Below are positions 34,220 through 37,650 of a DNA stretch of 64,000 nucleotides, piece after piece. Source of the stretch: Lachnospiraceae bacterium NK4A179. GTDB lineage: Bacteria; Bacillota; Clostridia; Lachnospirales; Lachnospiraceae. Location of the stretch: contig ATWC01000002.1 in the NCBI GenBank assembly GCA_000421045.1, forward strand, positions 1 to 64,000, given 5' to 3'. Under the pieces are notes generated by a model, which was not told the DNA's origin, did no database searches, and saw nothing but the letters and a program-made list of their open reading frames with translations. Position 1 is the stretch's first letter. Each line of letters starts with the position of its first letter. The translations under genes were made by a program, and so were the position numbers.

Positions 34220-35047
34220 ATGATAAAACATAAACCCACAATTCTTATAATTGCAATCTTATGTGCTTTTTTCCTTGCAGCCTGCGGGGAAACAAGATGT
34301 GATTTCTGCGGCGAAGAAAAACAATGCAAGGTCTTTGAGATAAACGGGGTAATGAGAAATATCTGCAACGACTGTCTGAACAATACAGCCAGCGCTGTTT
34401 CAGGCAATGTGGCAAGAGGATATGCAAAACTGTATGAAGACGGTGTTCTTGAATATCCTTCCGATTCACCGCTAAAACCCGTTTCAGATACTCCCGCCTC
34501 AACGGAAGCTACCGAAAAACCTTCTGCTCCGGATATCATCATCCCTTCCGTTTCAAACGGAGATACTGATATTTCCGAGGCCGCATCCGTAATAGACGGC
34601 GAAGAACCGTCCTTCGACATCGGCGAAACTCCGGACACTGCCGTATCGGAAACTTCTTCAGCTTCCTCTGATGACCGCGTCGATAACATAAACCGCGGAC
34701 TTCTACCAGAAGGCTTTTCTCTTGCAGAGGACGGCTCAGGATCCGGACGCTACAACATGATGTCCGGTGATACCGATACCGGCATCGATTTCACCTTTGT
34801 GGATGACAAGCTGAAGATCGAAGAATATGATGAAAACTATGCGCAGCAGTATGTAAAAGCTGTTATACGTACCATACTCGCCTATACAAACAGCAACGAT
34901 TATGACGGCTATGGTCACGATGTCTACAACAGTACTCTGGAAAACGGAAATTATAAATCCGGCGGTGTGACCTTTTTCTCATCAGTAGGAACCACCGACG
35001 AGATCGAAAAAGGGTACCCTCTCACCACTTTTACCATAGTCCCCTGA
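34220..35047 (+). CDS. Cys-rich lipoprotein of unknown function
   Basis: A 275-residue lipoprotein. The signal peptide ends with lipobox LAAC (Cys22). Right after it is a small zinc-ribbon-like module: CDFC (27-30) and later ICNDC with about 20 residues between. A long Ser/Thr/Pro/Glu-rich linker (about 80-165) leads to a C-terminal globular region (GFSLAEDGSG to the end) of unknown type. A zinc ribbon on the outside of the membrane is unusual. TTGACC at 34162 may belong to its promoter. Not recognised as a known family. It ends about 160 nt before the pseudo-AAA+/VirD4 pair and is probably a separate unit. Confidence 0.7.
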   Translation: MIKHKPTILIIAILCAFFLAACGETRCDFCGEEKQCKVFEINGVMRNICNDCLNNTASAVSGNVARGYAKLYEDGVLEYPSDSPLKPVSDTPASTEATEKPSAPDIIIPSVSNGDTDISEAASVIDGEEPSFDIGETPDTAVSETSSASSDDRVDNINRGLLPEGFSLAEDGSGSGRYNMMSGDTDTGIDFTFVDDKLKIEEYDENYAQQYVKAVIRTILAYTNSNDYDGYGHDVYNSTLENGNYKSGGVTFFSSVGTTDEIEKGYPLTTFTIVP

Positions 35048-35209: not shown

Positions 35210-36073
35210 ATGGCTGAAAACCGGTACTACAAAGAGATCATGAGCCTTAAAGGCATGAATGATTTCAAGGATGTCATCGAACAGTGGCATCGTCTCAGTG
35301 AAAACATGCGTAAGTTCAACGCAAAGAAGGCTCCGACACTTCCCAACCTGTTATGGGCATCCGACAACGGTATGGATCTGGAAGACATCACAAACCTGCT
35401 CACCGGTTTTGTATACGAAGAACAGAATCTGCTTGATTTCTACGGTGCTGTACAGGACCTCGACTACTTTATGGAGTATGTTCCCAACGGTGAAGAATTC
35501 CATGAGATCGATAAGATTGCCGAAAAGATCAGAGGCGCTGCCGGTTTCCGTTCAGAATACAGAGGCATCATGGCTATTGATGTCAGCGAGTGGATCGGAC
35601 ATTTCCAGGAAGAGAATTTCATAGAGGTTCTCAAATATCTGCAGTCAATCTCTTCAGATATCCTTTACATATTCCAGATACCTAATTTCAATCCTCAGGC
35701 TGTTGAGCAGCTCACTCAGATCCTTGCTCTCTTCTTCCATATACAGCCGATCGAGATGAAGCTTCCCGAGTCAGCAGAACTTGCTGAATACACAAAGGAT
35801 CTCCTGCTTCAGTATGGTCTTACACTTGACACTGAGGCTGAGCAGATGCTCACCAACTCAGTTGCTAGACTTAAAGAAGATCAGTATTTTGCAGGCTATA
35901 CACTGCTTGACCGTATGGCCTCCGACATTGCATATTCCATCTTCACTTCCACTCCTCCCTATGACGGACTGGTAACGAAGGGCATGATCACTGCTTTCGC
36001 TCCTGACGGAATATATGTAAATGAGATGATACAGAACAACGCGCGCGTATTCACGTCGCAGTTTAATTATTAA
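35210..36073 (+). CDS. Probable inactive AAA+-like protein, partner of the VirD4-like ATPase
   Basis: A 287-residue soluble protein not matching any family I know by name. Its layout follows a CbbX/SpoVK-like AAA+ domain. TLPNLLWASDNGMDLED sits where Walker A should be but lacks GK[ST]. GIMAIDVSEWIGHF sits where Walker B should be, keeping one Asp and losing the catalytic Glu. DILYIFQIPNFN resembles sensor 1, and LAEYTKDLLLQYGLTLDTEA followed by a helical segment resembles the lid. ATP binding therefore looks lost. ATG at 35210 has AAAGGCGGG upstream; a frame from 35135 has no site. It lies 22 nt before the ATPase gene. The fold is inferred from pattern only. Confidence 0.7.
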   Translation: MAENRYYKEIMSLKGMNDFKDVIEQWHRLSENMRKFNAKKAPTLPNLLWASDNGMDLEDITNLLTGFVYEEQNLLDFYGAVQDLDYFMEYVPNGEEFHEIDKIAEKIRGAAGFRSEYRGIMAIDVSEWIGHFQEENFIEVLKYLQSISSDILYIFQIPNFNPQAVEQLTQILALFFHIQPIEMKLPESAELAEYTKDLLLQYGLTLDTEAEQMLTNSVARLKEDQYFAGYTLLDRMASDIAYSIFTSTPPYDGLVTKGMITAFAPDGIYVNEMIQNNARVFTSQFNY

Positions 36074-36095
36074 GAAAGGGAGGCTCCCACGAAAA

Positions 36096-37592
36096 ATGGC
36101 AAGCAATCAGATAAAAAACAACAGATACAAAGCTAACAAGGGCCAGACACGTTGGGCAACAGTTGAAGAGATACAGCGTTCAGCCACCAAGGTTGACCTG
36201 CATGCTCCTGTTTACCCCACAGCCGGCATTCCTGTTATGTCAGACGGAAACACAGCATACCTTGACGGTACCGATACACATACACTTATCTTCGGTGCTA
36301 CCGGTTCAAAGAAGACCCGTATCTTCTGTATGCCTACCATCAACATGATGATAAGAGCAGGTGAGTCTTTCGTCGTAACCGACCCTAAGGCTGAGCTTTA
36401 TGTCCGCACAGGCGGATTTGCAAAAGAAAGAGGATACAAGCTCGTCGTACTTAACTTCCGTGATATCGGATACGGCGACATGTGGGATCCCCTTGCACTT
36501 CCTTTCGAGTATTACACTCACGGAAGAAAAGATGAAGCAAACAACCTCATCAACGACCTTGCAGCTACACTTTCAGCAAGACAGAAGGAAAACTCAACCG
36601 ATCTGCTCTACCCTCTGATGGCTGAAACACTTCTTACAGCTAACATGTATCTGCTTTTCGAAGCAGCTGCTGCAGAAGGCGCAGTTAACATGCGAAGCCT
36701 TACAGCTCTCTGCTCACAGTCAGCTCTTGAATCACTCAAGACTCTCGCCGGAAAGATGAGCTCACAGAATACGATCGGTATGCTCTTCAAGGGTACACTC
36801 CTTGGTGAGAACGAAAAGACCATCGGTTCTATCATGTCAGTACTTTACGGAATGGTTTCAATCTTCAACCTGAACAAGAGACTTACCGACATGCTCTGCC
36901 ACAACACCTTCGATATGAGAATGTTCGGTCACGAAAAGACAGCAGTCTATATCATCGTACCTGATGAAAAGACCACCTGTCACTTCCTTGTAACAATGTT
37001 CATCAAGCAGGTTTATGAAATCCTCATCGGTGAAGCTCAGAAGCAGCCCACTCTTTCACTTCCTGTCAGAGTAAACTTCGTACTGGACGAGTTCTGTAAT
37101 ATCCCGAAGATCCCGGATATGCCGTCCATGATATCTGCCGGCCGAAGCCGAAACATGAGATTCTATCTGATAGTTCAGTCTATCCATCAGCTTAAGGGTC
37201 GTTACGGAGAAGATGCTGATACGATCAAAGGTAACTGCGATAACTGGGTATTCCTTACATCCCGTGAGCGTGACCTCTTAACAGAAATGAGTTTCCTCTG
37301 CGGTGAAATAGATGCATGGGGCCCCGCAGGTCCTGAGAAGAGACAGCTCATATCCATCTCCGAGCTGCAGCGTTTCAATAAGCAGAAAGGTGAAGTTCTC
37401 ATCCTCCACGGACGTGAGTATCCTTTCATCACATACATGGCCGACATTGACCAGTATCCTGATTTCGCTAACTACCGCGTTGTGCCTATCCCGCCTATCG
37501 AGATACCGCACGTACCTACATTCGATGTAATCAAGTTCACAACAAAGAATGCATTCCTTCCGGACGGCGTTCCTTTCAACGAGCCGGACTGA
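36096..37592 (+). CDS. VirD4/TraG-like type IV coupling ATPase lacking a membrane anchor
   Basis: A 498-residue cytosolic ATPase. It begins at the coupling-protein motif GQTRWATVEE (compare GxARWA), with no N-terminal membrane helices. Walker A is GATGSKKT (67-74) with Lys in place of the usual second Gly. Next come VVTDPKAELY and DMWDPLALPF. Walker B is NFVLDEFCNIPKI. The arginine/sensor region is SAGRSRNMRFYLIVQSIHQL, followed by NCDNWVFLTSRE, all as in VirD4/TraG. Coupling proteins pump DNA or proteins into secretion channels, but no relaxase, VirB4 or pilus gene is near. Preceded by GAAAGGGAGG and ended by a strong terminator. Confidence 0.85.
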   Translation: MASNQIKNNRYKANKGQTRWATVEEIQRSATKVDLHAPVYPTAGIPVMSDGNTAYLDGTDTHTLIFGATGSKKTRIFCMPTINMMIRAGESFVVTDPKAELYVRTGGFAKERGYKLVVLNFRDIGYGDMWDPLALPFEYYTHGRKDEANNLINDLAATLSARQKENSTDLLYPLMAETLLTANMYLLFEAAAAEGAVNMRSLTALCSQSALESLKTLAGKMSSQNTIGMLFKGTLLGENEKTIGSIMSVLYGMVSIFNLNKRLTDMLCHNTFDMRMFGHEKTAVYIIVPDEKTTCHFLVTMFIKQVYEILIGEAQKQPTLSLPVRVNFVLDEFCNIPKIPDMPSMISAGRSRNMRFYLIVQSIHQLKGRYGEDADTIKGNCDNWVFLTSRERDLLTEMSFLCGEIDAWGPAGPEKRQLISISELQRFNKQKGEVLILHGREYPFITYMADIDQYPDFANYRVVPIPPIEIPHVPTFDVIKFTTKNAFLPDGVPFNEPD

Positions 37593-37612
37593 TACATCAG
37601 TTTTCAGATTCA

Positions 37613-37650
37613 AAAAAGCTTCAGCCATTTTCATGGTTGAAGCTTTTTTA
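37613..37650 (+). terminator. Terminator of the pseudo-AAA+/VirD4 unit
   Basis: AAAAGCTTCAGCCA pairs with TGGTTGAAGCTTTT over a short loop, followed by T-residues. The A-run on the left makes it usable in both directions for the convergent ABC permease. Confidence 0.9.

Follow-up and report, generated by a model that had tools for sequence, protein, structure and literature searches.

What does a VirD4-type ATPase do on a chromosome where its neighbours have nothing to do with conjugation? The question is raised by two adjacent genes in the window (the whole stretch of 64,000 nucleotides that was analysed), in which a protein of 287 aa (P0001, 35210..36073, + strand) precedes a soluble VirD4/TraG-type ATPase of 498 aa (P0002, 36096..37592, + strand). 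Both ORFs were confirmed at these positions, 22 nt apart, and the genes around them (a P-type metal ATPase, an ArsR-like regulator, a tRNA-Arg, a lipoprotein and an ABC exporter) are those described by an earlier reading of the DNA made from its letters alone, hereafter the sequence-only reading. That reading had noted the lack of conjugation genes beside the pair, which we confirmed: the window genes include no relaxase, VirB4 or pilus gene, and a search of the whole genome returned no VirB4-type ATPase above the cutoff. The evidence presented below makes it probable that the pair belongs to a machine that unfolds proteins and is not a leftover of gene transfer.

As judged from its sequence, P0002 is a VirD4-family ATPase in form and not an Hsp100 unfoldase. 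It matched the Pfam model PF02534 (E 8e-38) and the NCBIfam model NF045973, 'VirD4-like conjugal transfer protein, CD1115 family' (267.9 bits against a cutoff of 250), and the motifs named in the sequence-only reading were found by alignment, Walker A (GATGSKKT, residues 67-74) at 36294..36317 and Walker B (VLDEF) at 37080..37094, both on the + strand. The Walker A lysine and the Walker B glutamate were kept in all relatives examined, the glutamate being invariant. In the Walker A variant of P0002, a Lys replaces the Gly that precedes the catalytic Lys, a change common to the ClpP-linked relatives at loci L071, L092 and L095 described below. The N-terminus carries no membrane helices, again as had been proposed: the maximum Kyte-Doolittle hydrophobicity of this region was 0.25-0.43 in the P0002 orthologs of L033 and L037, against values above 1.5, indicative of a hydrophobic anchor, in 19 of 20 conjugative VirD4 controls, which had the usual G-K-T wherever a Walker A was called. 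The AlphaFold model of P0002 (pLDDT 89.6) had as its nearest solved structures Cagbeta, the closest, and TrwB, with HerA-nuclease complexes among the weaker matches; Cagbeta recruits and moves protein. In P0002 we identified no loop through which it might dock on ClpP. Since the anchor and the gene context, two defining features of coupling proteins, both fail, the automatic label 'conjugal transfer protein' is not acceptable for P0002. Two further candidates were rejected, an SSB-like C-terminal tail (DGVPF; DDVPFTE in the relative G054), whose motif stops short of the extreme end, and membership of a known defence system, for which the PADLOC output was limited to a weak match between P0002 and mad8 (E 0.0016), with no match for P0001.

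The AlphaFold model of P0001 (pLDDT 89.7) showed an AAA+ core with a helical lid, and a structure search placed CbbX, clamp-loader delta and RuvB as its nearest folds, the first match being CbbX, a protein remodeller (TM-scores of about 0.5-0.6). The only NCBIfam match was a weak one to holA (E 2e-6). By alignment, WASDNGMDLED stands at the Walker A position, and P0001 lacks intact Walker A and B motifs, the nucleotide-binding motif having been lost in the genus. Because Walker A is replaced in P0001 and retained as AGSGKS in its ortholog in G054 (locus L068), the name pseudo-AAA+ (pAAA) that the sequence-only reading had given to this protein is apt. A likeness of P0001 to chromosome-replication ORFs in L096 and L098 was put down to the common AAA+ fold only.

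The two genes had also been credited with a promoter and a terminator of their own. The terminator is present, as an intrinsic one with a 17-pair stem and a T run at 37612..37649 (+ strand); the promoter was not borne out, since a sigma-70 scan called none ahead of P0001 and the promoter-like sites in the region were at chance level (7 found, 6.3 expected). Upstream of the pair lies the lipoprotein gene (34220..35047, + strand), whose product has a CxxC...CxxC directly after the lipobox and a weak match to the ClpX-type zinc finger (PF06689, E 0.022, below the cutoff). It had been taken for a mere flanking gene and proved to keep its place upstream of the pair in 22 of 30 genus loci, despite differing outer flanks. 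This synteny, together with the lack of a predicted terminator between the lipoprotein and the pair, would suit a motor that acts with the lipoprotein in an envelope process, for example membrane-protein export or turnover. We regard such a role as very unlikely, given that the lipobox predicts a lipoprotein outside the cell, that the gene was not seen beside the distant, out-of-genus loci and that at least three genus loci (L027, L029 and L031) keep the pair without it. Because of these last loci, we treat the lipoprotein as an optional companion of the pair.

The pair is conserved in gut bacteria and near-core in its Lachnospiraceae genus. Orthologs of P0001 were present in 31 of 35 genus genomes and those of P0002 in 33, a count that includes G021, which has a fragment, and G032, whose copy lies at a contig edge; full-length P0002 orthologs were 82-97% identical. 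Strains XPB1003 and AB2028 are among the genus members with the pair. The two genes were adjacent wherever both share a contig, assembly-split copies aside, while the outer flanking genes varied between members. The dN/dS values (0.02-0.04 for P0002 and 0.06-0.10 for P0001) indicate that both genes are under strong purifying selection. The pair is thus conserved side by side through the genus, and searches of phage, plasmid and viral-contig collections did not find P0001, in agreement with the proposal that the pair is chromosomal and lies outside mobile elements. Either of two findings would have counted against that proposal, confinement of the pair to integrative conjugative elements (ICEs) or a missing membrane-anchor gene in relatives; the pair was not ICE-confined, and no conjugative-type anchor gene adjoined it in relatives. 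An ICE or plasmid remnant was rejected on the strength of the genus-wide synteny, the lack of a VirB4 above the cutoff and the absence of P0001 from the phages, plasmids and viral contigs searched. A related possibility is that P0002 arose from a conjugative coupling protein by trimming and serves mobilisable elements in trans; its CD1115-family score over the cutoff and the relaxase genes of the window genome, located only on another contig (C16), speak for it. Against it stand the missing anchor, the same lack of a VirB4-type ATPase in a genome where P0002 is the single VirD4 match, the conservation throughout the genus, the absence of P0001 from mobile-element collections and the position of P0002 in a clade apart from the conjugative VirD4 proteins sampled; we consider it highly improbable.

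An indication of function came from outside the genus. Profile searches with P0001 covered 391 genomes of Clostridia, 392 of the order and 399 of the phylum, and found homologs beyond the genus to be rare. In every VirD4-bearing distant locus with complete flanks, the pAAA gene came immediately before a VirD4-like gene without an anchor, and in 9 of 9 such loci, from nine genomes of six other Clostridia families, a dedicated ClpP gene adjoined the pair; L129, which is cut by a contig end, is outside this count. The order was pAAA-VirD4-ClpP in L071, L092 and L095 and ClpP-pAAA-VirD4 in L069, L070, L089, L126, L127 and L128, and the genes often overlapped by a few bases. The linked ClpP genes gave Pfam matches of E 4e-53 to 5e-71 and kept the catalytic Ser and His, with Asn at the usual Asp position in L092 and L095. 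In 20 conjugative VirD4 loci that came from the same search and served as controls, neither ClpP nor pAAA occurred within about 6 kb. As the genomes have one to six ClpP genes each, we estimate the probability of chance ClpP adjacency at well under 1% per locus. Neither in the genus loci read nor in G054 did a ClpP gene stand beside the pair, and the search of the window genome found a single ClpP, a housekeeping one next to clpX and lon, and no second copy; for these reasons, a ClpP step is not implied for the window pair itself. Several of the distant VirD4-like proteins carried an extra C-terminal domain (L128:3735-5576, L126:1804-3465, L069:324-2090 and L089:10443-12317), which in L128 had a weak model match, to a ribosomal L7/L12-type domain (PF00542, E 9e-4, below the cutoff), the others being similar by eye. 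The L7/L12 C-terminal domain has the same fold as the ClpS adaptor.

In a tree of 36 VirD4 proteins, P0002 and the G054 ortholog grouped together (support 99/97) and then joined the ClpP-linked proteins of L071, L092 and L095 (83/70). A larger clade (88/89) held all the soluble VirD4-like proteins together with one anchored protein, L072, and the conjugative VirD4 proteins fell outside it. The linked ClpPs were likewise separate from the housekeeping ClpPs, and their split paralleled that of their VirD4 partners. The separation of the soluble clade from the conjugative VirD4 proteins sampled makes P0002 look like an old lineage rather than a recent domestication. The simplest reading of these trees, in which the branches between the window clade and the ClpP-linked proteins have moderate support, is that the three-gene arrangement is likely the older one and that the window genus and G054 lost the dedicated ClpP.

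Taken together, these results support, with a probability of roughly 0.55, the assignment of P0001 and P0002 to a Clostridial family of cytosolic machines composed of a pAAA protein, a soluble VirD4/TrwB-type ATPase and, in most cases, a dedicated ClpP, of which the window pair would be a reduced, genus-core member. In the window pair, the pAAA gene directly precedes an anchorless VirD4-like gene, whose product falls in the soluble clade, and no dedicated ClpP adjoins. The sequence-only reading had proposed a DNA- or protein-handling machine, perhaps acting in DNA uptake, segregation or defence; the ClpP-linked relatives favour the protein-handling part of that proposal over DNA uptake or segregation. 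The main rival is a soluble DNA motor, in which an ATPase of the VirD4/HerA-FtsK type would travel along DNA during repair, during segregation or in a defence directed at DNA; P0001 would be a clamp-loader- or RuvB-like accessory, and the ClpP of relatives would have a regulatory role only. It draws on the match of P0002 to DNA-coupling proteins in both Pfam and fold, the HerA-nuclease complexes among its weaker fold matches, the presence of RuvB and clamp-loader delta among the nearest folds of P0001 along with the holA match, and a Card1-like gene near the G054 pair. We nevertheless consider it unlikely, as the complete distant loci were joined strictly to ClpP and not to nucleases, no nuclease adjoined the genus loci read, and CbbX, the first fold match of P0001, acts on protein.

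Some relatives combine the pAAA domain with other partners. At L088:7534-11578 and L091:9000-11708, a single protein joins a pAAA-like domain to an active AAA domain with AAA_lid_6, and ClpP follows, so that pAAA would adjoin another kind of motor together with the same peptidase; by analogy, P0001 and P0002 may work as stacked rings. We treat this link as suggestive, since other pAAA-AAA fusions (L090, L093, L094, L100, L131 and L132) have no ClpP nearby. The two-domain gene of L088 is also preceded by a Card1-like gene, which is related to the one at the G054 pair locus (31% identity over 410 aa, E 1e-70), and in L095 a Card1-like domain is fused to a kinase; the Card1-like gene thereby ties three architectures together (the L068 pair locus, L088 and L095). 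The G054 locus (L068:3244-14798) holds, in addition to the pair and the Card1-like gene, genes for a RyR-domain membrane protein, a zf-HC2 protein, a membrane nSTAND/NACHT-like NTPase and a TIR-Sel1 protein. At L095:1015-13123, the neighbour of the three-gene unit encodes a protein of 1412 aa with protein kinase and Card1-like nuclease domains, and a TIR-Sel1 protein is encoded on the other strand.

Such neighbours raise the possibility of a chromosomal conflict (defence) module, in which an attack would prompt motor and pAAA to process a sensor or effector protein, in the manner of other conflict systems based on NTPases. The TIR-Sel1, NTPase, RyR-domain and Card1-like genes at the G054 locus, the TIR-Sel1 protein and kinase-Card1 fusion in L095, and the ClpB-like AAA, PP2C and kinase genes in L089 all fit this possibility. 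In the window genus, however, no such gene adjoins the pair, the Card1-like gene was absent from the six genomes searched, and near-universal presence with dN/dS of 0.02-0.10 resembles a core function; PADLOC gave no convincing match for P0001 or P0002. We therefore judge a conflict module improbable for the window pair.

Two of the ClpP-linked clusters, L069:324-19614 and L070:1736-14847, contain genes for ThiF-type E1, E2-like, ubiquitin-like and JAMM proteins, along with transglutaminase-like and SPFH proteins, ClpP, pAAA and two VirD4-like ATPases. The E2-like protein includes SPNVFRSGVACIDNW and the JAMM protein GHTHPDLGVFYSQTD, and the ubiquitin-like protein ends in ...VA, not GG. From these gene contents, the clusters are a candidate bacterial ubiquitin-like protease system. 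L127 has a related cluster, with no E1 or ubiquitin-like genes on its contig.

In the cytosolic machine that we favour, P0002 would form a hexameric ring that hydrolyses ATP to thread a substrate protein through its pore, and the catalytically dead P0001 would form or cap a second ring and select substrates. The choice of protein as substrate is inferred from the union of these genes with ClpP, the destructive chamber to which, in most relatives, the unfolded chain would pass. In the window genus, where the dedicated ClpP is missing from the locus, the pair may dock on the single housekeeping ClpP, or may unfold or remodel proteins without a peptidase. A bolder proposal, which we put forward tentatively and hold to be somewhat doubtful as a whole, is that a VirD4-class hexamer of the FtsK-HerA lineage, seated under a pseudo-AAA+ ring, is a ClpP unfoldase; that in some Clostridia it is coupled to E1-E2-ubiquitin-like-JAMM tagging, as a bacterial analogue of the ubiquitin-proteasome pathway; and that the window pair is its stripped, core-genome form. 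To our knowledge, Hsp100 AAA+ unfoldases are the only motors that drive ClpP proteases, and secretion and conjugation channels are all that VirD4-type motors feed. If the family is real, proteolysis inside the cell can run on a conjugation-type motor, and a conserved gene pair now annotated 'conjugal transfer protein' gains a purpose; the small, compact loci L071, L092 and L095 offer material for a direct test of the idea that VirD4-type motors serve ClpP. Our literature search, limited to open-access sources, found no description of a VirD4-ClpP linkage, and as far as that literature shows the family is unreported.

Compared with known systems, P0002 has the same RecA-like motor, all-alpha domain and Walker A/B motifs as the VirD4/TraG/TrwB proteins of the CD1115 family (NF045973, PF02534), but differs from them in its altered Walker A (SKKT), its pseudo-AAA+ partner and the ClpP of its relatives, as well as in lacking a membrane anchor, a neighbouring relaxase or VirB4, and any VirB4 above the cutoff elsewhere in its genome. 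P0001 shares its fold with CbbX, RuvB and clamp-loader delta, at 10-18% identity, and is set apart by the nucleotide-binding motif lost in the genus and by its VirD4-like gene partner. Bacterial E1-E2-ubiquitin-like-JAMM clusters (PADLOC E1-E2) have their counterpart in L069 and L070, which contain all four components and add pAAA, two VirD4-like ATPases and ClpP, whereas the window locus is without ubiquitin-like genes; VirD4 and ClpP are both absent from the text of a 2006 survey of ubiquitin-like systems in prokaryotes (PMC1779556). As in the Hsp100/Clp-ClpP machines (ClpXP, ClpAP and ClpCP), the relatives of P0002 join an ATPase motor gene to a ClpP gene, although the motor is of the VirD4 type and not an Hsp100 AAA+ protein and ClpP is missing at the window locus, and the tandem pseudo- and active ATPase domains of L088 and L091 resemble the two-domain Clp ATPases.
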